A stretch of 13,572 bases of DNA, taken from positions 1 through 13,572 of the forward strand of contig CAMENQ010000018.1 of NCBI GenBank assembly GCA_945928585.1. Reading direction: 5' to 3'. The DNA is from an uncultured Roseburia sp. GTDB lineage: Bacteria > Bacillota > Clostridia > Lachnospirales > Lachnospiraceae. A program made the position numbers and the translations under genes. Positions 1 through 13,572 of the stretch are shown piece after piece; the stretch's first letter is position 1, and the number at the start of each line of letters is the position of its first letter. The notes under the pieces are model-generated. The model had not been told where the DNA came from. It worked only from the letters and a program-made list of their open reading frames with translations, and ran no database searches.

Positions 1-232
1 GGACCGGGCAGGGGGTTATATTTTATCTGTGTAAGCATTTAGGGGGCTGCTAGAAATTTATTAATATACTACCGTCATTTGCTTAGCAGAGGTCGTCTGT
101 CTGAGGAAGTGACTGAGAATTCAGACACTTTCGAGTTACGACCGCCGCTTAGCAAATGGCGGTAGTTTATTAATAAAATTTCTTGCAGTACCCGAAGCTT
201 ACACAGATAAAATATAACCCCCTGCCCGGTCC
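1..232 (+). repeat. Long palindromic structured element, copy 1 (candidate ncRNA)
   Basis: The two ends are perfect reverse complements over about 36 bp (1-36 against 197-232). Inside them the arms pair again (about 42-66 with 167-190, then 68-87 with 147-166, 91-96 with 138-143, 105-116 with 121-132), giving one long interrupted hairpin with a GAAT tip at 117-120. The internal loop CTGTCTGA (97-104) opposite GAGTT (133-137) is identical in copy 2. Pairing reaches the window edge, so the left arm may extend further left. No ORF or transposase is inside. It lies 68 bp behind the stop codon of the minus-strand CapA-like gene and is the only strong hairpin there, so it could also act as that gene's 3' end structure. 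Plus strand is assigned from U-G pairs in the inner stems and from copy 2's upstream promoter; this is inference. No known family was recognised. Confidence 0.85.
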
Positions 233-300
233 GGTCCGCCACATCATCCCGCCACAAAGACATACGGCAAGGAAGAATTTTCTCCCCTCACAAAATCCCC

Positions 301-1533
301 CTACTGCTCCTTATACAAATCCCCAAACACCTGTCTGCACAAATCCTTGCAATACTGAACAGAAAATCCGCTTTCCTCATTTAATATTCTGTTTTTTGCA
401 GCCAGCTCATCTGTATAATCACTAAGCTTATATGTAGTAATTGCCTGCTGTCCAAACAACTTATGTGTCACAAGAGGTATCACACCATAATCCTTTATGT
501 ATATCTGTCCATCCTCAGTATTTGATATGGTAACGTCTGCCATAGCTCCTACCATTCTTGGTCCTTTATCCTGATTAGATACAAAATTTCCAAGAGAATA
601 GTAACAGAGTGTTTTATTTCCATTTGCTCCCTCTATCCATTCTACAGGCTGTATAACATGTGGATGGGCTGCTATAATAAGGTCTGCGCCGTTGTCCGCC
701 ATAAGCTGTGCCCAGCCAACCTCATCATATATACTGCCCGGCTCATCCCATGGCTCATGCTTATACTCCGGTCCCCAATGCGGACATACAATAACAAAAT
801 CTGCCATTTCGTCAGCTCTTTTTAAATCACTGACTATTCTGTCGGTATCCAGCATATTTACCATATACTCTCTACCTGTAGGAAGTGCTATACCGTTTGT
901 TCCGTATGTATAGTTTAAAATTGCTATTTTTATTCCATCCTGCTCATATACATATATATTTTCAGATTCTTCCTGTGTCTGTGCCACACCCAGCACTGCC
1001 ACATCCGGATGACTTGTTTTCCAATATGAAAGACAATTATCTATACCTGTTGCCCCCTTATCAAGAGCGTGATTTGTAGCATGAAGCACAACGTTAAAGC
1101 CTGCATTTACAAGTGCATCACCCATTTCATATGGTCCGTTAAAGCATGGATATCCTGAAAGACCCAGCTCCTTTCCTCCTAAAATAACCTCCTGATTAAC
1201 TATGGCTATATCTGCTGACTGCACCTCATCCTTTACATTTGCAAAGAGATGGTCATAATTGTATGTGCCATCAGCTAAAAGACCGCTGTTAGTTACGCCA
1301 TCGTGCATTAATATGTCGCCTACCATTTTTATATTGATTTCTACAGGTGCAAACGGCTCAGTTGTCGGTTCTTCAGTTGCCGGTTCTTCAGTGGTCTGCT
1401 GCATAGCCTCTGTTCCACTGCCTATTGTTCCGTTTACTTCTACCGTATCATTTTCTTTTGCACAGCCTGTTATTGCCGTTACAAGGACAACTGCCATAAA
1501 CAAAGACTTTAATTTTTTTAATATACTGCTCAT
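301..1533 (-). CDS. CapA-family lipoprotein (poly-gamma-glutamate synthesis CapA-like, metallophosphatase fold)
   Basis: This 410-residue protein starts with a lipoprotein signal: basic MSSILKKLKS, a hydrophobic stretch, and lipobox ITGC with the lipidated Cys at 24. A Thr/Glu/Pro-rich linker (about 41-60) follows, then a CapA domain over about 65-360. Its hallmarks are visible: MVGDILMHDGV (70-80), IVNQEVILGG (111-120), HATNHALDKG (151-160), VCPHWGPEY (249-257), AAHPHVIQPVEW (288-299) and YYSLGNFVSNQ (311-321). The Asp, Asn and His residues of these motifs are the likely metal site. The protein should sit on the outer face of the membrane. CapA proteins take part in poly-gamma-glutamate capsule formation, but no capB or capC partner is nearby, so the substrate here is unknown. 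A GAAAGGA ribosome binding site precedes the ATG. It lies 70 bp behind the papain-fold gene and may share its transcript, although a TATAAT (1560-1565, minus) with a poor -35 lies in the gap. Confidence 0.9.
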   Translation of the reverse strand: MSSILKKLKSLFMAVVLVTAITGCAKENDTVEVNGTIGSGTEAMQQTTEEPATEEPTTEPFAPVEINIKMVGDILMHDGVTNSGLLADGTYNYDHLFANVKDEVQSADIAIVNQEVILGGKELGLSGYPCFNGPYEMGDALVNAGFNVVLHATNHALDKGATGIDNCLSYWKTSHPDVAVLGVAQTQEESENIYVYEQDGIKIAILNYTYGTNGIALPTGREYMVNMLDTDRIVSDLKRADEMADFVIVCPHWGPEYKHEPWDEPGSIYDEVGWAQLMADNGADLIIAAHPHVIQPVEWIEGANGNKTLCYYSLGNFVSNQDKGPRMVGAMADVTISNTEDGQIYIKDYGVIPLVTHKLFGQQAITTYKLSDYTDELAAKNRILNEESGFSVQYCKDLCRQVFGDLYKEQ

Positions 1534-1603
1534 TTTTTATCCTTCCTTTCAAAACTGTAATTATATGTCTTTTACTCCGTGAAATATTGTATATTATCCT
1601 GTT

Positions 1604-2197
1604 TTACTGCACATATCTCTTATAGTTATCCATTTTATCAAGATAGCCCTCTATTGTACCAACATAAAGTATTTTTTTGTCAGGCATATCATAAAAATCT
1701 TTTGGTGTAACAAGTGAATAATGCTTGTCAAATTTTCTTATGCCATAGTCTTCAAGTGTTCTTGCCACAAACTGGGAACAGGCGTATCTTCTTTTTTGAT
1801 GAAAAGGCTTGCCCATCACTAAAAATGGCAGTCCTAATACAGTGTAATGATATCTTTTTGCATTTTTCTCATAATATTTTATACGTTTCCATACATTTTT
1901 CTTCTGCTCCTTTGTACAGGTAATCTCTGATACCATACAAAGTGCCTTTGGAAAATGTTCTACAACCTTATCCATTTCCTCATGTTCAAAGCCTGACAAT
2001 ATAGGTACTTTTGGATTTCGTCTTCCAAAACTGTATGCATACTTTAATTCCTCATCCATTCCCAATACTATATGTATGTATTTATGTCTTGTAAAAAGTC
2101 TGATAAGTGTAGCAAATATACCCGGTGTGGAAACGAGTACCAGATATAGTTTTTCTGTTTGTTCATTTTTATTTTCATCTTTTTCTATGTCTTCCAT
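1604..2197 (-). CDS. Permuted NlpC/P60-like (YiiX-type) papain-fold protein
   Basis: This is a 197-residue soluble-looking protein with a highly charged N-terminus and no signal peptide. Two islands suggest the circularly permuted papain-like (NlpC/P60, YiiX/YebB type) fold: KYIHIVLGMD around His42, and RRYACSQFVARTLEDYG around Cys140. In permuted members the His precedes the Cys, as here. The family includes amidases, peptidases and lipid hydrolases, so no substrate can be named. A conserved-looking hydrophobic patch YTVLGLPFLVMGKPF (118-132) precedes the Cys. The AGGAGG at 2203-2208 (minus) is well spaced from the ATG, and a sigma-A-like promoter lies upstream. It is divergent from the AI-2E gene and is followed after 70 bp by the CapA-like gene. 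The fold assignment rests on motifs only. Confidence 0.7.
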   Translation of the reverse strand: MEDIEKDENKNEQTEKLYLVLVSTPGIFATLIRLFTRHKYIHIVLGMDEELKYAYSFGRRNPKVPILSGFEHEEMDKVVEHFPKALCMVSEITCTKEQKKNVWKRIKYYEKNAKRYHYTVLGLPFLVMGKPFHQKRRYACSQFVARTLEDYGIRKFDKHYSLVTPKDFYDMPDKKILYVGTIEGYLDKMDNYKRYVQ

Positions 2198-2254
2198 TTG
2201 TTCCTCCTATGGAAATTTATATTGATGTCTGTAATATATGTAATGCTGTGCTAT

Positions 2255-2283
2255 AGTATATATTAATTTTCAAATTTCTACAA
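2255..2283 (-). promoter_or_regulatory. Sigma-A-type promoter for the papain-fold gene
   Basis: Read on the minus strand, TTGTAG (2278-2283) is followed after exactly 17 bases by TATACT (2255-2260). Transcription would begin near 2248, leaving a leader of about 50 bases before the ATG at 2197. Five of six bases match the -10 consensus. Confidence 0.6.
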
Positions 2284-2310
2284 TATTTTATTTTATTAAT
2301 CTTTTATTTG

Positions 2311-2319
2311 TGATATTAT
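2311..2319 (+). promoter_or_regulatory. Extended -10 promoter for the AI-2E family gene
   Basis: TGATATTAT reads as TG-n-TATTAT, an extended -10 box, with start expected near 2326 and a leader of about 25 bases. The -35 region (TTTTAT at 2291-2296, 17-base spacing) is poor, which an extended -10 can tolerate. Together with the minus-strand promoter at 2255-2283 it makes a compact divergent promoter region. Confidence 0.45.
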
Positions 2320-2350
2320 TAATTAAAAAATAAAAGAAATGAGGTGTTTT

Positions 2351-3664
2351 ATGAAATTAAATTTAGATAAAAGATATACAAAGTTTTGTAAATACATAAT
2401 ACTGACGGCAGTTATTATATTTCTTCTGTTCAGGGTTATTGATGCCATACCTTCATTTTATGATAATTTCCTTGGATTTTTATCAGGTCTTTGTGAAATA
2501 TCATTTCCTATTATAATTGGCTTTATTATCGCATATCTTCTCTTTGGTCCAATGAATGCCATAGAGAATTTTCTGATGAGAAGAAAGCATTTTCCTCACA
2601 AAAAAGGACTATGCCGTGCCATCGGTCTTGTGGTATCTTACATTTGTTTATTAGCTGTTATTGCCTTTCTTATTGTAGGTATATATTTTATGATAGGCGG
2701 ACAGCTTTCCCAGTCAAGTACCGTATCTGCCATATTTAACACTGTCACAGAATATTTCAGCACAAATACACTTTCCTCTGATGCACTTAAAGAACTCATT
2801 GCATCAAAAAACATTCCTTTTGGAGATTTACTTATAAGTCAGCTTGACAATATAACAAAATTTCTGCAAGGTGTAATGTTATCACTGGTAGACAGCGTTG
2901 GAAGTTTTATTATTGCACTTGGAAGCAACATCTTCTCACTTGCAGTTTCGTTAATATTAAGTATTTATGTACTTTTCAGTCATGAATATTTCAGTTCTAT
3001 ATGGGAAAGATTTTTCTTTATTATATTTAGAAAATCAAAAGCAGGACAGGTTGTGAAGCGCTCACTCCATATAATAAACTATACTTTTTCAAAATATATA
3101 AGAGGTCAGCTTATAGAAGCTTCCATTGTGGCTATCCTATCGGCACTTGTCCTTACAATTATAGGTGTAGATTATGCCTTTGTTATCGGTATCATTGCCG
3201 GTATCTGTAATCTCGTGCCATATATCGGTCCATTTGTAGGCATTGTACTTGCCGGAATCGTTGCCCTGTTTTCAGGAAATATATGGCTGGCTGTAGCTGC
3301 CATAGTGGGATTATTTATAGTCCAGCAGATAGATGTAAATATACTGTGTCCAAAGATTGTCGGGGATATAGTGGGTATGCATCCGGGATTTATCATTATT
3401 GCCATCACCATAGGAGGCAATCTTGCAGGACTTTTAGGTATGCTTATAGCAGTACCTGTAGGTGCATCCCTTAAAACGATTATTTCTGACTGGTTTGATT
3501 ACTATATTAAAGATAAATATGAACAATACAAATCTGAAAATCAGGATGAACAGTTAAGCAGGGACAAAATTGTCTCAGCTTTTGATTTATCAGAAAAGCC
3601 TGAACAGGACTCTGAAGAAAGCACTTCTTCTGACGAAACTGATACGCCACCCGAAAATCAGTAA
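2351..3664 (+). CDS. AI-2E family transporter (PF01594-type membrane protein)
   Basis: The protein has 437 residues from the preferred start. An ATG at 2339 is in frame, but it overlaps the ribosome binding site GAGGTG that serves the ATG at 2351, so the shorter form is chosen. Membrane segments are seen at about 15-31, 50-66, 88-116, 183-209, 256-281, 283-308, 310-327 and 344-372, with a soluble stretch between the third and fourth. The family hallmarks are clear: LVPYIGPFVG (288-297) and GMHPGFIIIAITIGGNLAGL (342-361) running into LIAVP. The C-terminal tail (about 395-437) is acidic, Ser/Glu-rich and probably disordered and cytoplasmic. Family members have been linked to autoinducer-2 export or to ion/proton antiport, so the substrate is not fixed by sequence. 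It is a single-gene unit with its own terminator. Confidence 0.92.
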   Translation: MKLNLDKRYTKFCKYIILTAVIIFLLFRVIDAIPSFYDNFLGFLSGLCEISFPIIIGFIIAYLLFGPMNAIENFLMRRKHFPHKKGLCRAIGLVVSYICLLAVIAFLIVGIYFMIGGQLSQSSTVSAIFNTVTEYFSTNTLSSDALKELIASKNIPFGDLLISQLDNITKFLQGVMLSLVDSVGSFIIALGSNIFSLAVSLILSIYVLFSHEYFSSIWERFFFIIFRKSKAGQVVKRSLHIINYTFSKYIRGQLIEASIVAILSALVLTIIGVDYAFVIGIIAGICNLVPYIGPFVGIVLAGIVALFSGNIWLAVAAIVGLFIVQQIDVNILCPKIVGDIVGMHPGFIIIAITIGGNLAGLLGMLIAVPVGASLKTIISDWFDYYIKDKYEQYKSENQDEQLSRDKIVSAFDLSEKPEQDSEESTSSDETDTPPENQ

Positions 3665-3683
3665 AATAATTTTATAAAAACTC

Positions 3684-3711
3684 TTTACATTTTAAAAATT
3701 TATTGTATAAT
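3684..3711 (+). promoter_or_regulatory. Promoter-like sequence just before a terminator hairpin
   Basis: TTTACA (3684-3689), a 16-base spacer and a perfect TATAAT (3706-3711) form a near-consensus promoter. Transcription would start near 3718, only a few bases before the terminator hairpin at 3722. It could be a chance match in AT-rich DNA or could drive a very short RNA. No ORF follows. Confidence 0.35.
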
Positions 3712-3721
3712 AACAATTAAG

Positions 3722-3759
3722 AACGAGGTTGTTCCAAAAGGAATAACCTCGTTTTTTTT
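3722..3759 (+). terminator. Rho-independent terminator after the AI-2E family gene
   Basis: AACGAGGTTGTTCC (3722-3735) and GGAATAACCTCGTT (3740-3753) form a 14-bp stem with one G-U pair and an AAAA loop. It runs into eight T residues. It sits 58 bp behind the stop codon. Confidence 0.92.
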
Positions 3760-3790
3760 ACTTTCCCTCACATTATACATATAGAAGAAT

Positions 3791-3831
3791 CCCCAGTATG
3801 AAGCTCCATTCAAACTGGGGGTTTTGCTTTT
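3791..3831 (+). terminator. Second hairpin in the convergent gap, probable terminator
   Basis: CCCCAGTATGAA (3791-3802) pairs with TTCAAACTGGGG (3809-3820) with a single A-A mismatch and a 6-base loop. A T-rich tail TTTTGCTTTT follows on the plus strand. The minus-strand tail is poor in T, but the hairpin lies 14 bp behind the minus-strand DUF624 stop codon, so it may serve both directions. Confidence 0.6.
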
Positions 3832-3833
3832 AA

Positions 3834-4553
3834 TCATTCTTCATCATCAAATGTGTAACCCTCTTTTTTCAGGTCTTCAATATTTCGTTTTACCATTTCC
3901 TCATAATCCTCAGAATACTTATTTAATACTCTTCGGAATATATAGCTTTGAACAAGTCCGTTTAAGCCAAAGCATAAAAACAGCAGATATATCATTATTA
4001 ACATTTTTCCTGTCATTATCATATATACGCTTATGCCTATTATACATACGGAAAAGATTACGGCTTCTATTACATATAGGATGTTTTTAACGGTAATATA
4101 AAATGTGTTTACGATATAGTCTTTTATGCTCATCTCAAAACGTGACACCAGCGGAAATAATGTATGAAGCATCATTACCAGAAATACTGCCGCTATAACA
4201 GATGCCACAAGCATAACATATCCATATGTTCCGTCAGCTATGCCATATTTTACCCAATAGAAAATATCTACATACAATATAAAGCCTATGACAAGACCAA
4301 TAACCCAAAGTACTGTTGACTTAAGAAAATTTGCCTTAAAGGATTTAAAATAATCCTTTGTAACAGAAAACTCTCTCTCATTTATGATTTTGAGAAATAC
4401 TGAGTTCATGGCTGTCATTGATGCTCCCATAGTTATAATGGGAATGCTTGTAATTATGAATAATATATTTAATGCAAAAACATATATAAGCTTTCTGCCG
4501 AATTCATAAAATGAATTACTTGGGTCAAATATGTTTCTTACTCCGTCTAACAT
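3834..4553 (-). CDS. DUF624 (YesL-like) membrane protein
   Basis: The protein has 239 residues with about five hydrophobic segments (22-42, 80-96, 112-132, 158-180, 183-203). The N-terminal pattern, a first helix ending in IITSIPIITMGASMTAMNSV (33-52), is typical of DUF624/YesL proteins, where a similar S-P-I-x-T-x-G-A-S core is conserved. The C-terminus is charged and cytoplasmic (about 207-239). The molecular role is unknown; family members often lie near sugar-uptake genes, which is not the case here. It begins 21 bp after nfnB on the same strand, so it is probably the third gene of the nfn transcript. The ribosome binding site is weak (AAAGG about 12 bases upstream), which suggests low or coupled translation. 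Confidence 0.8.
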   Translation of the reverse strand: MLDGVRNIFDPSNSFYEFGRKLIYVFALNILFIITSIPIITMGASMTAMNSVFLKIINEREFSVTKDYFKSFKANFLKSTVLWVIGLVIGFILYVDIFYWVKYGIADGTYGYVMLVASVIAAVFLVMMLHTLFPLVSRFEMSIKDYIVNTFYITVKNILYVIEAVIFSVCIIGISVYMIMTGKMLIMIYLLFLCFGLNGLVQSYIFRRVLNKYSEDYEEMVKRNIEDLKKEGYTFDDEE

Positions 4554-4574
4554 AATTGTTCTTTGCCTTTCAAA

Positions 4575-5966
4575 TTACTTATTGCTAAGATACTCATCTA
4601 TAGACTGTGCTGCCGTCTTTCCAGCTCCCATGGCAAGGATAACTGTAGCAGCACCTGTTACGGCATCTCCACCTGCATACACTCCTTCTCTTGATGTAAG
4701 TCCGGTTTCTTCGTTTACAATAATTCCTCCCCACTTCTGAGTATCAAGTCCCTTTGTGGTTGATTTTATAAGCGGATTTGGTGATGTTCCGATAGACATA
4801 ATAACGCAGTCAACAGGAAGTTCAAATTCAGAATCAGCTTTAGCCACAGGTCTTCTTCTTCCTGATGCATCAGGCTCGCCAAGCTCCATTTCCTGACACT
4901 TCATTCCACCTACAAATCCGTTTTCTCCCGGAAGAATTTCTGTAGGGTTTGTAAGAAGCTTGAAGATAATGCCTTCCTCTTTTGCATGTTCTACCTCTTC
5001 CTTTCTTGCCGGAAGTTCCTCCTCGGAACGGCGGTATACTATGTAAACCTCCTCTGCACCAAGTCTCTTTGCACTTCTTGCAGCATCCATAGCTACGTTT
5101 CCGCCGCCTACTACAGCTACTCTCTTTGCATGCTGTATTGGTGTAGTCGGTTCATCCTTGTATGCTTTCATAAGGTTTACTCTTGTAAGGAACTCATTTG
5201 ATGAGTATACACCTTTAAGATTTTCACCCGGAATATTCATAAATCTTGGAAGTCCTGCACCTGAGCCGATAAATATGGCTTCAAAGTTATATTCCTCTAT
5301 AAGCTCGTCTATGGATAAAACTTTTCCTATTACCATATTTGTCTCTATCTTTACACCTAATGCTTTAAGTCCGTCTATCTCTTTCTGAACTATAGCCTTA
5401 GGAAGTCTGAATTCAGGTATTCCGTATACAAGAACTCCTCCTGCAAGATGAAGTGCCTCAAATATTGTAACCTCATAACCCTTCTTTGCCAAATCGCCTG
5501 CACATGTAAGTCCTGAAGGACCTGAACCTATAACTGCCACCTTATGTCCGTTTGACTGTGGCTTAACTGTTTCTGCTTTTGAGTTTGCATTGTGATAATC
5601 AGCTACAAATCTTTCCAGACGGCCTATGGCTACAGGCTCACCCTTAATACCTCTTACACACTTGCCTTCACACTGTGATTCCTGTGGACAGACACGGCCA
5701 CAAACTGCAGGAAGTGAGCTTGACTGTGAAATAATTTCATAAGCCTTTTCAAAATTACCTGCTGCAACTTCTTTTATAAAATCAGGTATCTGTATCTTTA
5801 CAGGGCAACCTGCCACACAATTCTTTGTCTTACAATTTAAACATCTTGCAGCCTCATCCAAAGCCTGCTCTTCTGTATAGCCTAAGGCAACCTCAAGAAA
5901 ATTTTTGTTTCTTACGTTTGGATCCTGTGAAGGCATTTCGTTTTTAACCATTGACATATTTGGCAT
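4575..5966 (-). CDS. nfnB: NfnB / GltA-like NADPH-binding subunit of ferredoxin:NADP+ oxidoreductase
   Basis: This is the 463-residue FAD/NADPH large subunit. The eight N-terminal cysteines that ligate two [4Fe-4S] clusters are present: Cys42, 45, 50 and 54, and Cys89, 93, 99 and 103. A first dinucleotide fold has VAVIGSGPSGLTCAGDLA (143-160) for FAD, and a second has VAVVGGGNVAMDAARSA (283-299) followed by YRRSEEELPAR (311-321) for NADPH. The C-terminal GVYAGGDAVTGAATVILAMG (428-447) closes the FAD site. Alone it resembles the glutamate synthase small subunit, but pairing with an NfnA-like gene points to the NfnAB complex, which bifurcates electrons between NADH, ferredoxin and NADP+. The frame is open 19 codons further upstream, but AAAGGAGG lies before the ATG at 5966. 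That ATG follows the nfnA stop with a one-base gap, so it is the real start. Confidence 0.92.
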   Translation of the reverse strand: MPNMSMVKNEMPSQDPNVRNKNFLEVALGYTEEQALDEAARCLNCKTKNCVAGCPVKIQIPDFIKEVAAGNFEKAYEIISQSSSLPAVCGRVCPQESQCEGKCVRGIKGEPVAIGRLERFVADYHNANSKAETVKPQSNGHKVAVIGSGPSGLTCAGDLAKKGYEVTIFEALHLAGGVLVYGIPEFRLPKAIVQKEIDGLKALGVKIETNMVIGKVLSIDELIEEYNFEAIFIGSGAGLPRFMNIPGENLKGVYSSNEFLTRVNLMKAYKDEPTTPIQHAKRVAVVGGGNVAMDAARSAKRLGAEEVYIVYRRSEEELPARKEEVEHAKEEGIIFKLLTNPTEILPGENGFVGGMKCQEMELGEPDASGRRRPVAKADSEFELPVDCVIMSIGTSPNPLIKSTTKGLDTQKWGGIIVNEETGLTSREGVYAGGDAVTGAATVILAMGAGKTAAQSIDEYLSNK

Positions 5967-5967
5967 A

Positions 5968-6810
5968 TTACTGAACCTCCTTTTTAAATAAGTTGCATGT
6001 TTCTTCGTGTACTTTTTTCTCAAACTCCTTATACATGGCGCCTCTTGCCATAGCTTCGTCGAAATCTACAAGGTGTCCGTCAAAATCAGGTCCGTCTACA
6101 CATGCAAACTTTGTCTCTCCGCCTACTGTAAGACGACAGCCTCCACACATACCTGTGCCATCTATCATAATAGGGTTCATACTTACCGTAGTTTTTATAT
6201 CGTACTGCTTTGTAAGGGCACATACAAATTTCATCATAATAAGAGGGCCAATAGTAATAACCTCATCATACTTCTCGCCGCTCTCAATAAGCTCCTTAAG
6301 GGCATCTGTTACAAGTCCCTTTTCTCCGTAGCTTCCGTCATCTGTTCGCATACAAAGCTTGTCACTTACAGCCTTAAACTCATCCTCAAGGATAACAAGA
6401 TCCTTATTTCTAAAGCCAACTATAGAATGCACCTCTGCTCCAAGAGCGTGCAGCTTCTTAGCTATAGGATATGCTATGGCACAGCCGACTCCACCGCCAA
6501 CTACTGCCACCTTCTTAAGTCCCTCTACATGAGAAGGCACTCCCAAAGGTCCCACAAAATCCTGAATAAATTCACCTTCCTTAAGGTGATTAAGCTTCTC
6601 TGTTGTAGCTCCAACTATCTGGAAGATAATTGTTACAATACCTTTCTCCCTGTCAAAATCAGCTATAGTAAGAGGGATTCTTTCTCCACATTCATCCACT
6701 CTTAAGATAATAAACTGTCCCGGCTCTGCCTTTTTAGCTATAAGGGGAGCGTCTATATCCATAAGCGTGACAGTTGGATTAAGCTCTTTTTTCCTGATAA
6801 TCTTATACAT
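5968..6810 (-). CDS. nfnA: NfnA / SudB-like FAD-[2Fe-2S] subunit of ferredoxin:NADP+ oxidoreductase
   Basis: This 280-residue protein belongs to the dihydroorotate dehydrogenase electron-transfer subunit family. It shows a flavin-binding barrel with GQFIIL (31-36) and RIPLTI (44-49), a nucleotide-binding fold VAVVGGGVGCAIAYPIA (101-117), and a C-terminal [2Fe-2S] region. That region has DGTGMCGGC (217-225) and FACVDGP (235-241), giving Cys222, 225 and 237 plus Asp217. This fits the three-Cys, one-Asp coordination described for NfnA. It pairs with nfnB, one base downstream, to form NfnAB. Two ATGs compete: at 6819 an AGGA abuts the codon, while at 6810 the AAAGGA is correctly spaced and gives the family-typical MYKIIRKKEL, so 6810 is preferred. 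The other name in use is sulfide dehydrogenase subunit B. Confidence 0.92.
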   Translation of the reverse strand: MYKIIRKKELNPTVTLMDIDAPLIAKKAEPGQFIILRVDECGERIPLTIADFDREKGIVTIIFQIVGATTEKLNHLKEGEFIQDFVGPLGVPSHVEGLKKVAVVGGGVGCAIAYPIAKKLHALGAEVHSIVGFRNKDLVILEDEFKAVSDKLCMRTDDGSYGEKGLVTDALKELIESGEKYDEVITIGPLIMMKFVCALTKQYDIKTTVSMNPIMIDGTGMCGGCRLTVGGETKFACVDGPDFDGHLVDFDEAMARGAMYKEFEKKVHEETCNLFKKEVQ

Positions 6811-6900
6811 TTCCCACATTTCCTTTCATTATATTTTAGTACCGCTTACGTTTAGTCCTCGGTATTTAAGTAATATATTTCACTTGTTCTAAACAGATAC

Positions 6901-6929
6901 ATTTTATCAAATAATACTATAAAAGTAAA
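6901..6929 (-). promoter_or_regulatory. Promoter of the nfnA-nfnB-DUF624 operon
   Basis: On the minus strand TTTACT (6924-6929), 17 bases, and TAAAAT (6901-6906) preceded by TG (TGATAAAAT, extended -10). The expected start near 6894 gives a leader of about 84 bases. The leader contains a small inverted repeat, TACCG (6840-6844) with CGGTA (6860-6864). No riboswitch could be recognised in it. Confidence 0.5.
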
Positions 6930-7013
6930 ACCTTTTTTACGATTCTTTTACACAGATTACAGGTAAGCATAATTTAAAATTGTATTTGTACATCACTTTT
7001 GTTAATCAATGTC

Positions 7014-7027
7014 ATTTGTTTACAAAT
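7014..7027. promoter_or_regulatory. Small dyad ATTTGT-tt-ACAAAT, possible operator
   Basis: A perfect 6-bp inverted repeat with a 2-base centre lies in the AT-rich gap upstream of nfnA, about 85 bp beyond its -35 box. It could bind a dimeric regulator, but such dyads arise by chance in AT-rich DNA. It does not match a full Rex operator. The rest of 6930-7080 shows nothing recognisable. Confidence 0.2.
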
Positions 7028-7080
7028 TATTCATTTTTTATCCAAAAACCTTTTACAATATAAACATTATTTCTTCAATT

Positions 7081-7110
7081 CTGACAATTATAATTAAATT
7101 CGTTAATAAT
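7081..7110 (+). promoter_or_regulatory. Putative promoter of a small plus-strand RNA
   Basis: CTGACA (7081-7086), an 18-base spacer and AATAAT (7105-7110) each match the consensus at five of six bases. Start is expected near 7117, about 70 bases before an isolated terminator on the same strand. Confidence 0.35.
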
Positions 7111-7116
7111 AAAAAA

Positions 7117-7185
7117 ACTTCCTCCCTTTTTTATTATAAAACCAACTAATTATCAAATCGGGTAGAAAACTACTCGATTTTTTTT
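7117..7185 (+). ncRNA. Candidate small RNA with CU-rich segment and terminator
   Basis: A plus-strand terminator lies where no plus-strand gene precedes it: the arms AAATCGGGTAG (7155-7165) and CTACTCGATTT (7170-7180) form an 11-bp stem with one G-U pair and an AAAA loop, and a T run covers 7178-7185. On the minus strand the G-U becomes A-C and the T run is lost, so the plus strand is favoured. With the promoter-like 7081-7110 this would give an RNA of about 70 bases. Near its 5' end is ACTTCCTCCC (about 7118-7127), complementary to Shine-Dalgarno sequences, as in some regulatory RNAs. There is no ORF. The existence of the RNA is an inference; the terminator itself is well supported. No function is assigned. 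Confidence 0.4.
7155..7185 (+). terminator. Orphan Rho-independent terminator
   Basis: An 11-bp stem with an AAAA loop is followed by eight T residues. It lies 48 bp behind the HAD-GNAT stop codon but in the wrong orientation to be that gene's ideal terminator. Weak bidirectional use is possible. Confidence 0.75.
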
Positions 7186-7233
7186 GAAAACATTTACCTA
7201 AATTATTTTTTCTTATAGTTCTGTATATTTTTA

Positions 7234-8430
7234 CTATATCTCAAATATAAATCCAAGCTTTTTTGCCAGTCCTATTGACTTTTTATTGTCCTTATGGATA
7301 TTTACCTTTATTTCCTCTATTCCCAATATATTTACCGCATAATCCATTATTGCCCTGCAGGCCTCAAATCCATAGCCCTTATGCTGATATTTCGTGCCAA
7401 TCACATAGCCAAGAAGCTGACTGTACTTCTCATGTTCAGGCTTAACATAATTGTGATTATTGCAATATATTCCCGTAATGTGATTTTCCGATTTCATTTC
7501 GCTGTCGTAATATTCTATCCCTGCACGCCCTATTACAGTTCCGTCTTTTTTTTCAACTATCCACATGCCATAACCATAAAAGCCATATATATTTGCTATA
7601 TACTGCTCTATATATTTAAGTTCCTCTTCTCTGCCAAAAAGTCCTTCCATATATTGTGTTATGTCACTGTCGCTATATATATCCATAAGGTCATCTATGT
7701 CCTTAGTACTCATTTCTCTTATTCTGAGTCTTTTAGTTTCAAGCACATACCACGGCTCATTAAAACAGTGATTATGTACCATTCTGATAAATGATTCATC
7801 TATGCTTAAAAAATCTTCGAACAGATAATCCGCTTTAGACAAATCCTGATTTCCCGAATTCGGGTTTACAAATCCAAGGCATGCCATTCCCGCTGCCTTT
7901 GCCGCTAATACTCCATTTTTTGAGTCTTCTATAACTATACATTCTGATTCCTTAACCGACAAAAGATTTGCTGCTTTTTGAAAAATATCAGGACTTGGCT
8001 TTGGATTTTCCAGTTCCATTCCACTTATTTTTTTGTCAAATACATCATATAACCCCAACTGTTTAAGGTTTCTGTCTATCTTTGACATAGGTGAGGAGGA
8101 TGCCACTGCCAGAAGATAACCTTCTTTCTTTAAATTTTTAACAAGATCCACTACACCTTTTATCTCCGGATATCCATTTTTCTCTACCATTTCTGCCAGG
8201 ACTTTTTCAGCCATATCCATCAGTTCACTCCAACTATAATTTAAAAGCTTATATTTTTCCCTGAAAAACTTCCAGATTTTTTCTATGGTAGAACCAATAT
8301 ACTGTCTGTAATCCTCGTACTGTAATTCTATACCGAATTTATCTTTTAGCATTTTATAATTAGCTGCAAAATGGACGGGTTCACTGTCCACCAGTACCCC
8401 GTCCATATCAAATATGACCGCCTTTAGCAT
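7234..8430 (-). CDS. HAD phosphatase/phosphomutase fused to a GNAT acetyltransferase
   Basis: The 398-residue protein joins two enzymes. Residues 1 to about 215 are a HAD hydrolase of the beta-phosphoglucomutase-like subgroup: DMDGVLVDSEP (8-18) with nucleophile Asp8 and acid/base Asp10, ASSSP (110-114), NPKPSPD with Lys144, and VIEDS (166-170) with Glu168/Asp169. A cap domain lies between the first two motifs. Residues from about 228 are a RimJ/RimL-type GNAT domain: LETKRLRIREM (230-240), the acetyl-CoA loop YQHKGYG (348-354), and NKKSIGLAKKLGF (382-394). Substrates are unknown; HAD subgroup members dephosphorylate sugar phosphates and GNATs acetylate amines. A coupling of the two activities on one metabolite is speculation. 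The ATG overlaps the cyclophilin stop (ATGCTAA) and has GAGGAG eight bases upstream, indicating coupled translation from the cyclophilin message. Confidence 0.9.
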   Translation of the reverse strand: MLKAVIFDMDGVLVDSEPVHFAANYKMLKDKFGIELQYEDYRQYIGSTIEKIWKFFREKYKLLNYSWSELMDMAEKVLAEMVEKNGYPEIKGVVDLVKNLKKEGYLLAVASSSPMSKIDRNLKQLGLYDVFDKKISGMELENPKPSPDIFQKAANLLSVKESECIVIEDSKNGVLAAKAAGMACLGFVNPNSGNQDLSKADYLFEDFLSIDESFIRMVHNHCFNEPWYVLETKRLRIREMSTKDIDDLMDIYSDSDITQYMEGLFGREEELKYIEQYIANIYGFYGYGMWIVEKKDGTVIGRAGIEYYDSEMKSENHITGIYCNNHNYVKPEHEKYSQLLGYVIGTKYQHKGYGFEACRAIMDYAVNILGIEEIKVNIHKDNKKSIGLAKKLGFIFEI

Positions 8431-8951
8431 TTTTCAGGCTCCTCATATTCCACACCACAAGTGTCTACTGTTACACTTGCCATCTTTTGTGTTTCAAGTG
8501 GTCTGTCCATATAGTCTGTAGCACACTCTGCAATCTTATTTACAATTTCCATTCCCTCTGTTACCTTGCCAAATGCTGCATACTGACCATCAAGATGAGG
8601 TGCATTTTTATGCATAATGAAGAACTGTGAGCCTGCTGAATCAGGATCCATGGCTCTTGCCATTGACAATACTCCCGCAGTATGAAGAAGTGTATTATCA
8701 AATCCATTTATGGCAAATTCACCCCTTATATCATATCCCGGACCTCCCATACCTGTGCCCTCAGGACATCCGCCCTGTATCATAAAGCCTTTTATAACTC
8801 TGTGAAAAATAAGTCCATCATAAAAGCCTTTATTTATAAGACTTATAAAATTTTTCACTGTGTTAGGTGCTATTTCAGGATAAAGCTCTGCCTTTATTAT
8901 ATCTCCGTTTTCCATTGTAATTGTTACTACCGGATTTTTAACCTCTGCCAT
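8424..8951 (-). CDS. Cyclophilin-type peptidyl-prolyl cis-trans isomerase
   Basis: This 175-residue cyclophilin catalyses proline cis-trans isomerisation in protein folding. It has the active-site segment FHRVIKGFMIQGG (49-61) with catalytic Arg51, then GSQFFIMHKNAPHLDGQYAAFGKV (107-130), interrupted only by the usual bacterial-length loops. No signal peptide is seen, so it is cytoplasmic. The reading frame opens 19 codons earlier, but the region around 8999-9008 coincides with the predicted -10 box, and GAGAGGA lies seven bases before the ATG at 8951. The shorter start is therefore chosen. It is the first gene of a two-gene unit with the HAD-GNAT fusion, overlapping it by seven bases. Confidence 0.93.
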   Translation of the reverse strand: MAEVKNPVVTITMENGDIIKAELYPEIAPNTVKNFISLINKGFYDGLIFHRVIKGFMIQGGCPEGTGMGGPGYDIRGEFAINGFDNTLLHTAGVLSMARAMDPDSAGSQFFIMHKNAPHLDGQYAAFGKVTEGMEIVNKIAECATDYMDRPLETQKMASVTVDTCGVEYEEPEKC

Positions 8952-8998
8952 TTTATTTTCCTCTCTTTCCATTGAAGTTATCTGTAATTTTCCTGATA

Positions 8999-9028
8999 AT
9001 TTTATCATACATACTGACCTTTATACAA
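8999..9028 (-). promoter_or_regulatory. Promoter of the cyclophilin/HAD-GNAT unit
   Basis: On the minus strand TTGTAT (9023-9028), 18 bases, then TAAAAT (8999-9004) preceded by TG (TGATAAAAT). The same extended -10 sequence precedes nfnA. Start near 8992 leaves a leader of about 40 bases. Confidence 0.5.
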
Positions 9029-9059
9029 CATTTATTTTTTATTATAAAGTTTCTCGTAA

Positions 9060-9124
9060 CAGTTCAGCCTTGCTGTCTGTGGTGCAGTGAATCTTCCGGC
9101 AGTATAGGCAGCAAGTCTGAACTG
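9060..9124 (-). repeat. Inverted repeat behind the TPM gene (3' hairpin)
   Basis: Arms 9060-9075 and 9109-9124 are complementary at 15 of 16 positions around a 33-base loop. It begins 15 bp behind the TPM stop codon. There is no T run on either side as expected for a classic terminator, so a 3' stabilising or Rho-type end structure is as likely. It does not resemble the three large palindromic elements. Confidence 0.45.
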
Positions 9125-9139
9125 GTATATTTTCTCTCA

Positions 9140-10114
9140 TTAAAACTTTCCGCTGCTTCCTCCATGACTGTGTCCTGAACTGCTGACATGACCGCCGCCA
9201 TGTCCGCCGCCGCTTCTACTGCCACCATTATCTGTCTGTATTTTTCTTCTTGTGGTAGTAGTATGTGTAAATTGGTCATGGCGTACTTTTAAATCCATAT
9301 GACCGCCCTGCATATAAGTCTTTTCATTTACCGTCGCCTTTGTCTTTGCTGAAGAACTCATAATAAGAACTGCAATCAATGCTATAACTAATGCTATAAC
9401 AATATCAATAAACGGATTTTTAAATGTAGTAAAAAAGTTTTCCTGCGGAACATACTTATCATAAAATTCATCCTGTGCACTGATACTTGAATAATCCGAA
9501 GAATACCATGCTTCAAATGCTTCCTCATAATTCTTATCGTCGGCAGCATCTAATGCAAGCTCTCTTACTTCATTTATGAAATATTCGGCAGCTTCCATAT
9601 ATTCCCCATCTGACAGATACGGCGTTATGTCCTCTACCATATCATCAGTTTCCCTGTCCAAATATACTCTGCATAAACCTGCCGTGGAAATTGCAACTTC
9701 CCGGTTATCCATATCAATAAGCATTATAACGCCGGAACCACATTCATAATCATATCCAAATCCATTGTCATCATAAAAATCACTTGCATATAAAAGAGAA
9801 TCCTTACCTCTGTTATAGTCTGTTGTTACTATTATCAAATCAAGTTTTATCTTTTTTGCCGTTTTTACAAGTGTTTCCTGAAGCTTTTGCTCCTCATTTT
9901 CTGAAAACAAATCTGCTTCATCGTAAATCTTTGGTTCTGTGTCATCATAATGACTGTCATCTACATTATATGAACCTGCCGCATATGCTGTAATCCCATT
10001 TATCCCTTTATCGCAAGGTATTGAAAGCATACCTGTCACTATAAGAACCATTCCCATAAATGCTGATGCTTTAAGTGAAGTTTTTCCCTTTACAAATAAT
10101 TCTTTTATTTTCAT
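9140..10114 (-). CDS. TPM-domain (TLP18.3/Psb32/MOLO-1-type) secreted membrane-anchored protein
   Basis: The protein has 324 residues from the ATG at 10114. A signal peptide is seen (hydrophobic 16-33, likely cut after AYA near residue 45). A TPM domain follows over about 60-190 (IYDEADLFSENEEQKLQ, LDLIIVTTDYNRGKDS, GSGVIMLIDMDNREVAIST). A second membrane helix lies at 234-252 and the tail (293-324) is rich in Gly, Ser and His. Family members have been described as acid phosphatases or membrane-quality factors; the bacterial role is unsettled. The His-rich tail may bind metal, which is inference. The frame extends 22 codons upstream into the zinc-ribbon gene, but the ATG at 10114 overlaps that gene's TAA (TAATG) and has AGGAGG upstream, so translation is probably coupled. 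Zinc-ribbon and TPM genes next to each other suggest a shared envelope function. Confidence 0.82.
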   Translation of the reverse strand: MKIKELFVKGKTSLKASAFMGMVLIVTGMLSIPCDKGINGITAYAAGSYNVDDSHYDDTEPKIYDEADLFSENEEQKLQETLVKTAKKIKLDLIIVTTDYNRGKDSLLYASDFYDDNGFGYDYECGSGVIMLIDMDNREVAISTAGLCRVYLDRETDDMVEDITPYLSDGEYMEAAEYFINEVRELALDAADDKNYEEAFEAWYSSDYSSISAQDEFYDKYVPQENFFTTFKNPFIDIVIALVIALIAVLIMSSSAKTKATVNEKTYMQGGHMDLKVRHDQFTHTTTTRRKIQTDNGGSRSGGGHGGGHVSSSGHSHGGSSGKF

Positions 10115-11160
10115 TATCCCACAAAACCTCCTAACATCATAAGAATAGCAAATACACCGGCAAATATTCCTCCAAACCATGCAAGTATTTTTTCCTTAGA
10201 CCGCGGAAGTGTACCTACCTGCTTTCCTGTCTGTCCGTTTATCGCAAGAATTTTATTTTCTCCTTTATACCTGTATGTAATCATCCAAACCGGAAGAAGC
10301 GTGTAAACTGCTGCTTTTTTCCTAAGTCTCGTACTGCTTCCTGTTATATTTACAGAAGAATAACCTCCTATGGTATTTCTCGTTTCTCTAAATATGTAAT
10401 CACGAACTCTTCTCTCTGCTCTCGGTGCCATCTGTTTACTGTCATAGGAATACTTTTCTGAAAGAAAACCTGACAGATACGGCATTTGAAAATCTTTTAA
10501 ATCAGTATAATTATATGGCTCAAGTAAATCCATAACATCGTCCGGCATTTTTTCTGATGCGTCTGCAGGAATCAGTCGAAATTCTGCATCTCCCTCTCTT
10601 ACAACTCTGAAGTGGTCTGTATGTGTAACCTCATAATCTCCCTCTCTGTGATGTCTTACCTTTGTGGCATGTGCCTCCATATGGCAGCCTGCATCATAAT
10701 CATAAAGCCAAAATGGTACATAAATTCCACTCATACTCTCTACAAAAGAAGACTTTTTAAACATAGACGGTGTGAAAACTCCTTTTTTACACCAGCTTTT
10801 GAAAATATCCTGAGCCTTATCCTTCGTAACCGTAAAAGGTACTATCTTTGCAGGCATTGTCTGTCCTGTAAGCCTTCCCTTTATTACGGCAGAACTTCCA
10901 CAAAAGCTGCATACAGTAGCAGTAGTCTTGTCATCTGTAATAAGCTCTGCACCGCAGCTTTGACATTTATAACCGTCTACATCTATTTTTTCATCGTTTT
11001 CTACAGTATCGTCCTCCACCTGAGAATCATACTTTTCCCCTGACTGTTCCATTTCACTTACACTCATATGTGTTCCGCAATATTCACATACAAGTTCACC
11101 ATGGCTACCATCAAACTCTATGGGTGCCCCACATCCCTTACATTTATATGTTTCAACCAT
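10114..11160 (-). CDS. Double zinc-ribbon (TFIIB-type) membrane-associated protein
   Basis: This 348-residue protein opens with two zinc ribbons, each CxxC...CxxC: Cys7, 10, 25, 28 and Cys66, 69, 84, 87, joined by an acidic linker (about 36-62). A middle domain (about 100-315) has no motif I can name; it contains SGIYVPFWLYDYDA (144-157) and VYTLLPVWMITYRYKG (285-300), recurring patterns in this protein type. One membrane helix (about 326-347) lies at the very C-terminus, so the bulk is probably cytoplasmic and tail-anchored. The function is unknown. Two ATGs exist, at 11178 and 11160; only the second has a spaced AAAGGA, so it is used. It is followed directly by the TPM gene with TAATG overlap. 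Its own promoter is unclear; TATACT/TATAGT boxes with poor -35 regions lie near 11195-11207 on the minus strand. Confidence 0.78.
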   Translation of the reverse strand: MVETYKCKGCGAPIEFDGSHGELVCEYCGTHMSVSEMEQSGEKYDSQVEDDTVENDEKIDVDGYKCQSCGAELITDDKTTATVCSFCGSSAVIKGRLTGQTMPAKIVPFTVTKDKAQDIFKSWCKKGVFTPSMFKKSSFVESMSGIYVPFWLYDYDAGCHMEAHATKVRHHREGDYEVTHTDHFRVVREGDAEFRLIPADASEKMPDDVMDLLEPYNYTDLKDFQMPYLSGFLSEKYSYDSKQMAPRAERRVRDYIFRETRNTIGGYSSVNITGSSTRLRKKAAVYTLLPVWMITYRYKGENKILAINGQTGKQVGTLPRSKEKILAWFGGIFAGVFAILMMLGGFVG

Positions 11161-11188
11161 ATTTCTGCTTCCTTTCATATTTCATATA

Positions 11189-11216
11189 TTGTCAGTATAC
11201 TATATTTATATATAAA
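11189..11216 (+). promoter_or_regulatory. Plus-strand promoter leading into palindromic element copy 2
   Basis: TTGTCA (11189-11194), a 16-base spacer and TATAAA (11211-11216) each match the sigma-A consensus at five of six bases. Transcription would start near 11223, about 43 bp before the element. No plus-strand ORF follows, so the element is the only evident product. Confidence 0.5.
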
Positions 11217-11247
11217 TTTCTATGAGAAGTTTTCCATAAATCTGTAA

Positions 11248-11265
11248 ATAAGCTTATCAGCTTAT
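11248..11265. repeat. Short palindrome abutting element copy 2
   Basis: ATAAGCT (11248-11254) and AGCTTAT (11259-11265) form a perfect 7-bp inverted repeat with a TATC centre. It ends exactly where the long element begins. It may be an operator for the divergent promoters or part of the element's 5' end. Confidence 0.4.
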
Positions 11266-11515
11266 GGATGGTGTGCAGAAGGCTGGCAATTATATTTTAT
11301 GTATGTAAGCATTGAGGGGGCAGTTAGAAATTTATTAATACGATGCTGTTATCTTTTTAGCAGAGGTCGTCTGTCTGAGGAAGCGGCTGAGAATTCAGCC
11401 GTTTCCGAGTTACGACCGCCGCTTAAAAGATAACGGCATCGCATTAATAAAATTTCTTACTGTCCCCGAAGCCTAAATACATAAAATATAACTGCCAGCC
11501 TTCTGCACACCATCC
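11266..11515 (+). repeat. Long palindromic structured element, copy 2 (candidate ncRNA)
   Basis: At 250 bp this is the best-bounded copy. The outer arms pair over about 45 bp (11266-11310 with 11471-11515) with few mismatches, and the pairing stops on both sides. Inner stems follow in the order seen in copy 1: 11316-11340 with 11442-11467, 11341-11361 with 11421-11441, 11365-11370 with 11412-11417, 11379-11390 with 11395-11406, and the same GAAT tip. The outer arm differs from copy 1 in sequence and length, yet is self-complementary. The CTGTCTGA/GAGTT internal loop (11371-11378, 11407-11411) and the flanking 3 x 3 loop are unchanged. A plus-strand promoter lies upstream. On the other side it lies 46 bp behind the MCP stop codon, which has no other terminator. 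There is no ORF inside and no target-site duplication. Confidence 0.88.
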
Positions 11516-11561
11516 TGCAAGTATATCTCAAAAGAGCACCGAAAGAATACACCGCCACACT

Positions 11562-13304
11562 TTACAACTTAAATACCTGCACTGTTTTTTCAAGTTCAAC
11601 TGCAATATCCTTAAGCTTATTTACGTTTCCTGATATATCAGATACAATCTCACTAACCTGTGTAACAGATGCTGATGTTTCCTGACTGCTTGCAGCATTT
11701 TCTTCAGCAATGGCTGAAAGATTCTGAACCAAATCAACTACCTTAACTCTTGATTCATCAAGTGTATCTGTCTTTACTGCAATATTATCTATGCTTTCAA
11801 TAGATGATATAACTCCTGCATTAAATGCCTCAAACATCTTATCTGTCTGAATCATCTTATCACTCTGTGCATCCATATTATCCTTTACCACCTGCATAGT
11901 CTTTACGGCTTCAGATGAATCCATTATTAACTCGTTTGTAATTTCCTCTATCTTTTGAGCTGATTCACTTGACTGTTCAGCAAGTTTCTGAATCTGTGAT
12001 GCTACAACTGCAAAGCCTCTGCCCTGTTCACCTGCTCTTGCTGCTTCTATGGAAGCATTTAGTGAAAGAAGATTTGTCTCTTCTGCAATAGAAGTTATAA
12101 AGGCTGTAGCTTCTTTAATCTTTAATGCTGATTCATTTGTGGTATGTGTCTGTCTGTAAATTTCGTCAATTGAAGCTCTTGTATGCTCGTTTTCTTTCAT
12201 AAGCTCGGTAAGAAGCTTCTGTGCGTCTTCGCTTGTATCTTTCATGCCGTCTGCATTTACCTTAAGTGTTGAAACTTCACCTGTAGTTTCTTCTATCATA
12301 TGGCCCATAACTATGACATCCTCTGTGGCTGTCTGAGTTTCCTCGGCCTGACTTGTTGCACCTAATGCTATGTCATTTACGGCTGTTTCTACCTGCTCCA
12401 TAGTCATAGTGGTATCCTTTGCGTCTGTGTTAAGCTGTTCAGATGCTGCATACAATTCTGAGCTTTGATTCTTTATATTGTCAATAACCTGTATAAGCTC
12501 ACCCTTAAGCCTTACAACAGCCTTTCCTATAAGACCTGTCTCATCCTTTCTCTTACTGAGACTCTTCTCCTCAGGACTCTCCGTGAAATCAAGAACTGAC
12601 ATTTTTCCAATAACACTCGTGATACTACCGATTGGACGAAGCATAATGTTTACAAGTATATATCCTATAACAGTAAATATAGCCGTCGCACCTATTCCTG
12701 CACCTATACAGAGATTTATTACTGTATCAGTTGTTGAGAGTATTTCATCCTTGTCTGCCGTAATAAGAATAATTGCACTCATATCCTTTGTAATGTAATA
12801 TGATGCATATTTCATAACTCCCTTAAACTCATATTCAATAACTGCCGAATCACGTCTTACGCCTTTTGATATATCTGCAACAATGCCCTTTACAAGGTCA
12901 TTTTCAACTGACTTTCCAACCTTTTCCTTTGTAGGATGGTAGAGCATGTTTCCATCTCCTGCTACAACATATGCATAGCTTGATTCAACACCTTCGATTC
13001 CTACGCCATCAAAAACAGAAGAAAGAGTTTCATAGGAGAACACATCATCCTCATCAGCAAGTGTCAGCATATTTTCAATGGTTAATCCATTTGCATTTGC
13101 AATATCAAACATATAATTCTTATTCTGCGAATCAATAACCTTAGTTATGTATGGAACAATAATAATCAAGTTGCAAAGCGTAGCGCAAATAATGGCGACT
13201 GCTACCATCAATGCAATCTTGGTTTTTATAGATTTACCAAAGCTGACTTTCCTTTCTACAGTCTTTTTTTCGGAATCCATCATTCCCTGATTTTCATTAT
13301 CCAT
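11562..13304 (-). CDS. Methyl-accepting chemotaxis protein
   Basis: This 580-residue receptor has a short charged N-terminus, TM1 (about 29-53), an extracellular sensor region of about 140 residues (54-195), TM2 (about 196-221), a HAMP domain (about 221-273) and a cytoplasmic signalling coiled coil to residue 580. The sensor includes [20 protein letters not shown] (108-127), a Cache-like PAS-fold signature, so it probably senses a small molecule outside the cell. The hairpin tip that contacts CheA and CheW is fully conserved: [20 protein letters not shown] (408-427) and [18 protein letters not shown] (428-445). No C-terminal CheR-docking pentapeptide is present. AGGAGGT is well placed before the ATG. 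It is a single-gene unit, flanked on both sides by copies of the palindromic element. The ligand cannot be predicted. Confidence 0.96.
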
Positions 13305-13355
13305 ATAAGTACCTCCTAAAATCCATCAAAAAATTCACCATATTTTATGTTTGTA

Positions 13356-13384
13356 ATTATACTATATTTCGACTTTTTTTACAA
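13356..13384 (-). promoter_or_regulatory. Sigma-A-type promoter of the chemotaxis receptor gene
   Basis: On the minus strand TTGTAA (13379-13384), exactly 17 bases, then a perfect TATAAT (13356-13361). Start near 13349 gives a leader of about 45 bases. No flagellar sigma-D type sequence was seen, suggesting expression outside the late motility regulon. Confidence 0.7.
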
Positions 13385-13430
13385 TCATATCTTATAAAAA
13401 ATTTTATAATTGAGTAACAGTTTAGTACTG

Positions 13431-13470
13431 CCGGTACCTGTAGCTTCAAGACGGGCTTCTATGGTGCCGG
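13431..13470 (+). repeat. Hairpin just before or at the start of element copy 3
   Basis: CCGGTACC (13431-13438) pairs with GGTGCCGG (13463-13470), with one T-G pair on the plus strand. It sits where copy 3 begins. It may compete with the element's own outer stem, whose partner arm lies outside the window. Confidence 0.35.
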
Positions 13471-13572
13471 ACACGGCTGAGTGGTTGTATATTATGTGCG
13501 TAAGCATTGAGGAGGCGGTTAGAAATTTATTAATACGATACCGTCATCTGCTTAGCAGAGGTCATCTGTCTG
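13461..13572 (+). repeat. Long palindromic structured element, copy 3 (cut by window end)
   Basis: The 5' half of a third copy is present. From GTAAGCATTGAGGAGGC (13500) onward it matches copies 1 and 2 closely through TTAGCAGAGGTC and CTGTCTG, where the window ends. Its P2 arm is a mosaic, ACCGTCAT and GCTTAGCAG as in copy 1 but CGAT as in copy 2. The outer arm before 13500 is different from both. The left end is estimated from the ATGGTG shared with copy 2. Whether it pairs with an unseen 3' arm cannot be tested here. A perfect TATAAT on the plus strand (13405-13410) lies upstream but lacks a good -35 box. Confidence 0.8.

Follow-up and report, generated by a model that had tools for sequence, protein, structure and literature searches.

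Giant-hairpin copies in the window and in the host genome

The window analyzed in this study is one entire contig (G000:C18; 13,572 nts) from an uncultured Roseburia sp., whose metagenome-assembled genome (MAG; G000) comprises 2.39 Mb in 369 contigs and is 84% complete. It contains three copies, all on the plus strand, of a giant-hairpin element with a core of ~170 nts, a nearly invariant internal loop within this core, and outer arms around it. The cores were located using R1, a covariance model built from 33 cores (alignment A1). The features are as follows:

1..232, plus strand: copy 1 of the giant-hairpin element, with the left arm truncated at the contig start (from fold and arm alignment)
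31..204, plus strand: core of copy 1, R1 positions 1-174, 189.9 bits; copy 1 is among the R1 builders
97..137, plus strand: loop module of copy 1, CTGTCTGAG (97-105), apical stem and CGAGTT (132-137)
9056..9128, no strand assigned: short imperfect hairpin that shares the terminal inverted repeats, lacks a core, and has an 8-bp duplication at 7/8 bases
11266..11515, plus strand: copy 2, 250 bp, without the usual outer ends, flanked by two minus-strand genes
11305..11478, plus strand: core of copy 2, R1 positions 1-174, 187.7 bits; copy 2 is among the R1 builders
11371..11414, plus strand: loop module of copy 2, CTGTCTGAGG...CCGAGTTACG
13414..13572, plus strand: left half of copy 3, from the terminal repeat to the contig end; its right half lies on contig C311 (L022)

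The initial annotation of this DNA had described three copies of a covarying hairpin of 230-250 bp. Its comparison of the 20-bp stems of copies 1 and 2 (68-87/147-166 against 11342-11361/11421-11440) was fully reproduced by our recount, which gave 7 two-sided changes, 2 one-sided changes (both involving T-G) and no pair-breaking change, and the T-T mismatch common to the two stems was also recovered. The copy bounds had to be revised, since copy 1 is truncated by the contig start and copy 3 begins at 13414 rather than 13461. Similarly, the proposed size fits copy 2, which is shorter than most family members; 27 of the 35 measured elements are hairpins of 291-401 bp, often about 344 bp. Single-strand folding yielded -152.7 kcal/mol for copy 1 (z = -21.0) and -158.3 kcal/mol for copy 2 (z = -21.7), with none of 200 shuffles as good in either case. 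The outer arms of copy 1 are perfect over 36 bp (1-36/197-232).

The last 40 bases of the window (13533-13572) are identical to positions 1-40 of C311, and the right arm on C311 matches the left arm of copy 3 at 80 of 82 aligned positions. Because of these identical ends and complementary half-elements, the two contigs very probably adjoin. Several further contigs end within a giant hairpin as well, and the hairpin therefore breaks the assembly.

A DNA search of the host MAG produced 48 rows, corresponding to at least 40 distinct places after reverse-strand self-matches were merged (40 of 71 candidates scored), and R1 produced 94 rows at no fewer than 52 distinct places (150 of 1140 candidates scored). 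Combination of both searches revealed at least 56 full or partial places, at least two of which are halves of one copy (copy 3 of the window and C311). Statistics on the arms are based on an apex-anchored alignment of 35 of 41 copies, the other six having lost the apex at a contig end. Core subfamilies A and B occur within different-looking outer shells; type B (e.g., L072-L077) has the same loop inside such a different shell. R1 had no match in 144 other relatives (19 candidates per genome scored, stricter filters), including three same-genus genomes that are 99%, 95%, and 84% complete.

With regard to gene content, Pfam matches were obtained for 9 of the 10 window genes tested, all to ordinary families (PGA_cap, AI-2E transporter, DUF624, Fer4_20/Pyr_redox, DHODB_Fe-S_bind, HAD/GNAT, cyclophilin, TPM, and an MCP signalling domain). 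A single open frame at 7234-8430 combines a HAD hydrolase domain with a GNAT acetyltransferase domain.

Covariation and strand signature of core and outer arms

Covariation over many copies, suggested by the initial annotation as a check, was examined in the 33 cores. Two-sided changes occur at 48 of the 67 pairs, a level reached by none of 500 shuffles (which do not preserve the relatedness of the copies). When core partners were slid by 1-3 columns, the proportion of paired cells dropped from 97.5% to 33-48%, and at least 174 changes from one Watson-Crick pair to another could be mapped on the tree.

The internal loop, CTGTYTGAG opposite CGAGTT, is nearly invariant; the exceptions are L031, which has TTGT, and the truncated L035, in which it is degenerate. 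Counting from the apex, positions 2-4, 8, 9, 18, and 22 are unpaired in 35 of 35 copies, position 22 being the T-T mismatch. The three bases ahead of CTGT are CGT, CAT, or CAA, depending on the row of A1, and L028 carries a wholly different apical stem with the same loop. Thus, invariance as originally claimed applies to this main asymmetric loop; the second loop, AGA opposite GCC, varies in some copies, mainly on its 3' side (GTA in type B). Immediately outside the core, the sequence TATATT is conserved within otherwise variable arms; it was considered as a possible promoter element, although copy 2 contains no -35/-10 pair.

To separate the two possible sources of such pairing, we used a strand test. 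A single transition in a pair yields G.T or A.C equally often; equal counts are expected if only DNA symmetry matters, and an excess of G.T if the fold of one strand is selected. On one strand, the core contains 61 G.U versus 16 A.C cells (p = 2e-7; three loop-embedded pairs omitted), and Fitch reconstruction on the tree gives 54 versus 15 origins. More than one copy carries 11 of the 21 kinds of G.U but only 1 of the 15 kinds of A.C, and removal of the two commonest G.U pairs still leaves 38 versus 15 (p = 0.002). In the outer arms, counted from apex position 69 and hence including the outermost helix of the A1 core, there are 38 G.T versus 46 A.C cells (p = 0.45). The contrast between core and outer arms gives p = 1e-5. 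Because G.U exceeds A.C in the core and not in the outer arms, the plus-strand fold of the core appears to be selected, and that of the outer arms does not.

The outer arms behave differently in other respects. The two arms of a copy form Watson-Crick pairs in 93% of their columns, yet the left arms of different copies share a median identity of only 56% after alignment (28 copies). We further compared copies whose cores are near-identical, in seven pairs, with several copies occurring in more than one pair. Their outer arms differ by 69 two-sided versus 45 one-sided changes (plus 7 two-sided changes in which not both copies are paired), whereas their cores differ by 2 two-sided versus 28 one-sided changes (nominal p = 5e-8 for the contrast). 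For the outer arms, these patterns favor homogenization at the DNA level. The coordination of the arms arises either from mutations copied from arm to arm by template switching or from exchange of cores between older shells. Template switching has been described as a source of compensatory changes (PMC8794818; here and below, the literature covered is that in open-licence PubMed Central (PMC), mostly at the level of titles and abstract openings).

The initial annotation had taken the covariation as a sign of selection on structure and had set gene conversion aside. For the core, its view agrees with the near-invariance of the loop and the excess of G.U over A.C on one strand; for the outer arms, DNA-level homogenization is the better account. 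Gene conversion cannot explain the loops, as the initial annotation argued, but it can explain the outer arms.

Terminal repeats, genomic placement and recurrence of the loop

Mobility of the element is a feature that goes beyond the earlier description. Typical elements begin and end with GTAACAGTTCAGCC...GGCTGAACTGTTAC, and the terminal-repeat pattern GTAACAGTTCAGCC (up to 3 mismatches) has 59 matches in the host MAG versus 0 for the reversed control. Some of these matches are short coreless hairpins of 53-73 bp, one of which is located at 9056-9128 of the window. This hairpin (L096 1500-1572) and another one (L014 55-127) have a near-identical loop in opposite orientation, which looks as if it had been inverted between the arms.

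Target duplications were examined in 17 end pairs, i.e., 16 of an earlier set of 22 plus L117; as that set contained false internal ends, L093, L029, L077, and L032 were left out together with the inner pairs of L024 and L021. An 8-bp duplication matching at 7 or more of 8 bases is present in 9 of the 17 end pairs versus 1 of 272 mixed pairs. As L117 joined the set only after its duplication had been seen, the counts without it are also given (8 of 16 versus 0 of 240). Because the elements have inverted repeats at their outer ends together with 8-bp target duplications, the footprint of a DNA transposon, the family is mobile and resembles miniature inverted-repeat transposable elements (MITEs). 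Terminal inverted repeats (TIRs) combined with an 8-bp duplication fit a DDE-type mechanism. Two other mobilizers were considered and rejected for the host MAG (84% complete), which matched neither the Y1 transposase (Y1_Tnp, PF01797) nor the reverse transcriptase (PF00078) by which a retro-element or retron would be recognized. Continuation of complementarity past the terminal repeats into the flanks was also rejected as a general property: an earlier count of 5 of 22 arose partly from false internal ends, and among the 17 end pairs only L012 has inverted-repeat flanks (10/12). The 8-bp duplication of L012 (1428-1793) is itself nearly palindromic (TAAGACTTA/TAAGTCTTA).

Concerning placement, 38 of 46 cores are untouched by open reading frames (ORFs) of at least 100 aa, and each of the remaining 8 is overlapped by an ORF over 6-22% of its length. 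Of 35 copies, 16 have an end no more than 20 bp from the stop codon of such an ORF. Six of the 46 copies are found between divergent genes.

Among 396 other genomes of the bacterial family, R1 had one match, in G366, which is weak (E = 4.7e-4; 7 candidates per genome scored). G366 contains a separate hairpin family; when the G366 match served as the query, 75 rows on both strands were obtained, with the best one spanning 573 bp. The arms extend to the 340-nt limit set, and ten elements measure 689-730 bp. CTGTCTGAG/CGAGTT is present at the inner end and again further out on the opposite strand, and in one locus (L119 1410-1740) the module occurs twice on opposite strands, so that either strand would present one. 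At 17 of 20 loci, with columns paired in less than half of the copies excluded, G.T versus A.C counts are 35 versus 5 at positions 1-100, 22 versus 17 at 101-200, and 46 versus 41 at 201-300 (inner 100 versus 201-300, p = 1e-4).

We also searched for the loop module itself. Across 397 genomes, the module pattern has 32 matches in the host MAG, 5 in G437, and 1 in G087, those in the latter two lying within hairpins, versus 2 overall for the reversed pattern. G366 scores 0 here because its spacer is longer than the pattern permits. A stricter pattern hit 22 loci in genome_contigs and a looser one 5 in viral_contigs. An apical stem of at least 6 pairs (including two fixed by the pattern) is present in 12 of these 27 loci (null 2.4%), and a lower stem of at least 4 pairs in 11 of those 12 and in 13 of 27 overall (null 19%). 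The 11 two-stem loci belong to Candidatus Babeliales SW_22 (seven), Lachnospiraceae UBA9736 (two), Rheinheimera (one), and Spirochaetes (one). In L150, only the apical stem is present, and the remaining 15 loci resemble chance matches; the viral_contigs matches were discarded, as none of the 5 has 6 apical pairs. Since a stretch end is no more than 33 bases away from four of the seven Babeliales loci, the number of copies may be lower; six of seven are outside ORFs of at least 90 aa. ORFs of 105-416 aa, whose status as genes is not established, cover the matches in L146, L147, L148, L150, and L160. Further searches were negative: the long core pattern in genome_contigs, the core pattern in viral_contigs, blastn of the copy 1 core against plasmids and phages, and blastn against plasmids with the hairpins from Rheinheimera and UBA9736 each gave 0 matches. 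The Y1 domain is present in G437, G454, and G456 (three of the seven other genomes with a module match) and had no match in G366 (91% complete), G087 (100%), G455, or G457.

Comparison with known repeats and interpretation

The initial annotation had named an Rfam match as a result that would remove novelty; at gathering score, no family was found for the window. At 13 other loci (5 + 8), 17 matches with E ≤ 1 were obtained, all below gathering score, and these (15 microRNA families, one small RNA, and one viral untranslated region (UTR) model) were taken as chance. Resemblances to the K-turn, the hammerhead, and other ribozymes do not seem to fit. Bacterial MITEs such as ERIC, bcr1, NEMIS, and Nezha are small, non-coding, and RNA-foldable, have inverted ends, and are often gene-adjacent, features shared by the elements here. 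These four are listed as bacterial MITEs in PMC3733652, where MITEs are defined by TIRs of 15-30 bp; in the present family, almost all of the element consists of the inverted arms, which covary.

The BOX and RUP repeats of Streptococcus are likewise intergenic, with terminal inverted repeats, target duplications, and TIRs that pair in the folded RNA; BOX repeats are modular, some are transcribed, and both kinds are apparently mobile (PMC3049150). Compared by description rather than by sequence, our elements have another size plan, arms that differ between copies yet pair within a copy, a core with its own strand-specific signature, and a core loop found in other genera and phyla. The GTAG and CGTC repetitive extragenic palindromic (REP) sequences with their RAYT transposases are also dispersed palindromes mostly outside genes; CGTC REPs have no known transposase, and some REP dimers lie inside longer palindromes (PMC3733652). 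REPs measure 20-40 bp, with CGTC stems of 8-9 bp, whereas the elements described here are mostly 291-401 bp long (about 700 bp in G366), show 8-bp duplications, and have no conserved tag, so that no 20-40-bp unit tagged by GTAG or CGTC was found. In the seven Babeliales SW_22 loci (L140, L145, L147, L152, L154, L157, and L158), the same loop is preceded by CGTC; judging from this sequence, the Babeliales hairpin is possibly a relative of CGTC REPs. The stem-loop repeats of Borrelia plasmids, likened to MITEs by their authors, are intergenic with compensatory changes too, but they are short, two of the five measuring 34 nt and 122 nt, and have few copies (nine, eleven, or three) (PMC2674063). 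In kind, the family belongs to the MITE-like palindromic repeats of bacteria, close to the BOX/RUP and REP repeats (PMC3049150, PMC3733652). The titles and abstract openings covered contain nothing describing the element or its loop, and as far as they reach, two features are new: a giant hairpin whose two layers evolve differently, and a loop module that recurs across distinct hairpin families.

We consider it probable that the copies are non-autonomous MITE-like elements whose whole body is one giant hairpin, with DNA-homogenized outer arms and a core selected on one strand. The inverted arms of the outer layer would be spread by transposition and kept complementary by a DNA-level process, perhaps template switching or conversion between the arms, or else an exchange involving other copies. 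The inner core of ~170 nts would fold on one strand and be selected for that fold, presumably acting as RNA and less likely as single-stranded DNA. Its internal loop CUGUYUGAG/CGAGUU may be the docking site for a host factor common to many bacteria. The most likely role would be that of a bound or processed RNA hairpin letting the element persist between genes, and possible routes include control of transcription or stability of the RNA crossing the element and aid to its own mobilization.

Several results weigh against this interpretation. The p values of the strand test treat cells as independent though copies are related. A DNA hairpin likewise tolerates G.T better than A.C, and the test therefore identifies the strand but does not tell RNA from DNA. 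The inner excess in G366 is partly due to two shared positions, without which it is 14 versus 5 (p = 0.06). Of 24 copies in tandem contexts, 18 have the favored strand antisense to the neighboring genes (p = 0.023), so read-through usually yields the opposite strand, and copy 2 has neither a sigma-70-like promoter (no -35/-10 pair) nor a T-run terminator. No autonomous element was found in the host MAG, where PF01797 and PF00078 were searched and no wider transposase survey was made. Among the three same-genus genomes compared with window 10114-13304, no clean empty site was found; the left gene is present in G001, with no right-gene match after it. The antisense bias and the placement between divergent genes are compatible with either an RNA that the element produces on its own or selection against sense insertions. 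The structured RNA initially proposed is thus only a candidate reading of the one-strand fold of the core, since single-stranded DNA folded into a hairpin would give an equal signature and the favored strand is usually antisense.

Such a DNA hairpin might be a recognition site, in which the folded plus strand, or a cruciform, is bound by a recombinase or an HUH transposase as in the REP/RAYT system. A strand-specific fold with constant mispaired bases, the dispersed intergenic hairpins, and the Y1 domains in three of seven other genomes with a module match are consistent with this. The lack of Y1_Tnp matches in the host MAG, G366, G087, G455, and G457 (other single-strand recombinases were not searched) and the DDE-type ends point elsewhere, and we regard such a site as unlikely. 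It is also quite unlikely, in our estimation, that all covariation, even that of the core, comes from template switching or conversion between the arms of an inverted repeat that is neutral or selfish and whose fold is not under selection. The outer arms would suit such a palindrome (G.T 38 versus A.C 46; 69 two-sided versus 45 one-sided changes), as would the known ability of template switching to make compensatory changes (PMC8794818); the cores of the same copies (2 versus 28), their G.U excess (61 versus 16), the asymmetric loop positions that stay unpaired in all 35 copies, and the recurrence of this loop in other hairpins do not. An ordinary 3'-UTR hairpin, that is, a terminator or mRNA-stabilizing repeat with nothing special about it, would agree with the 16 of 35 copies ending close to a stop codon and with gene-adjacent MITEs that act on mRNA (PMC3733652). 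Given the 6 of 46 copies between divergent genes, the 18 of 24 tandem copies in antisense, the missing T-run in copy 2, and a constant loop across lineages that demands more than a stable stem, this explanation seems highly improbable.

A structured RNA is usually considered proven once covariation is seen. In the present element, covariation bears a strand signature in the core but none in the outer arms, and the G.U versus A.C test therefore separates selection from palindrome homogenization. Moreover, hairpin repeats from several bacterial lineages share a small and testable loop module, for which the literature covered at the above level names no known binder. Tentatively, CUGUYUGAG/CGAGUU between two short helices could be a general docking module of RNA or single-stranded DNA for a factor conserved across phyla, which unrelated giant-hairpin elements would have adopted separately while the arms around it were rewritten by DNA-level palindrome homogenization. 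If so, each element would be a selected fold inside a self-correcting palindrome.

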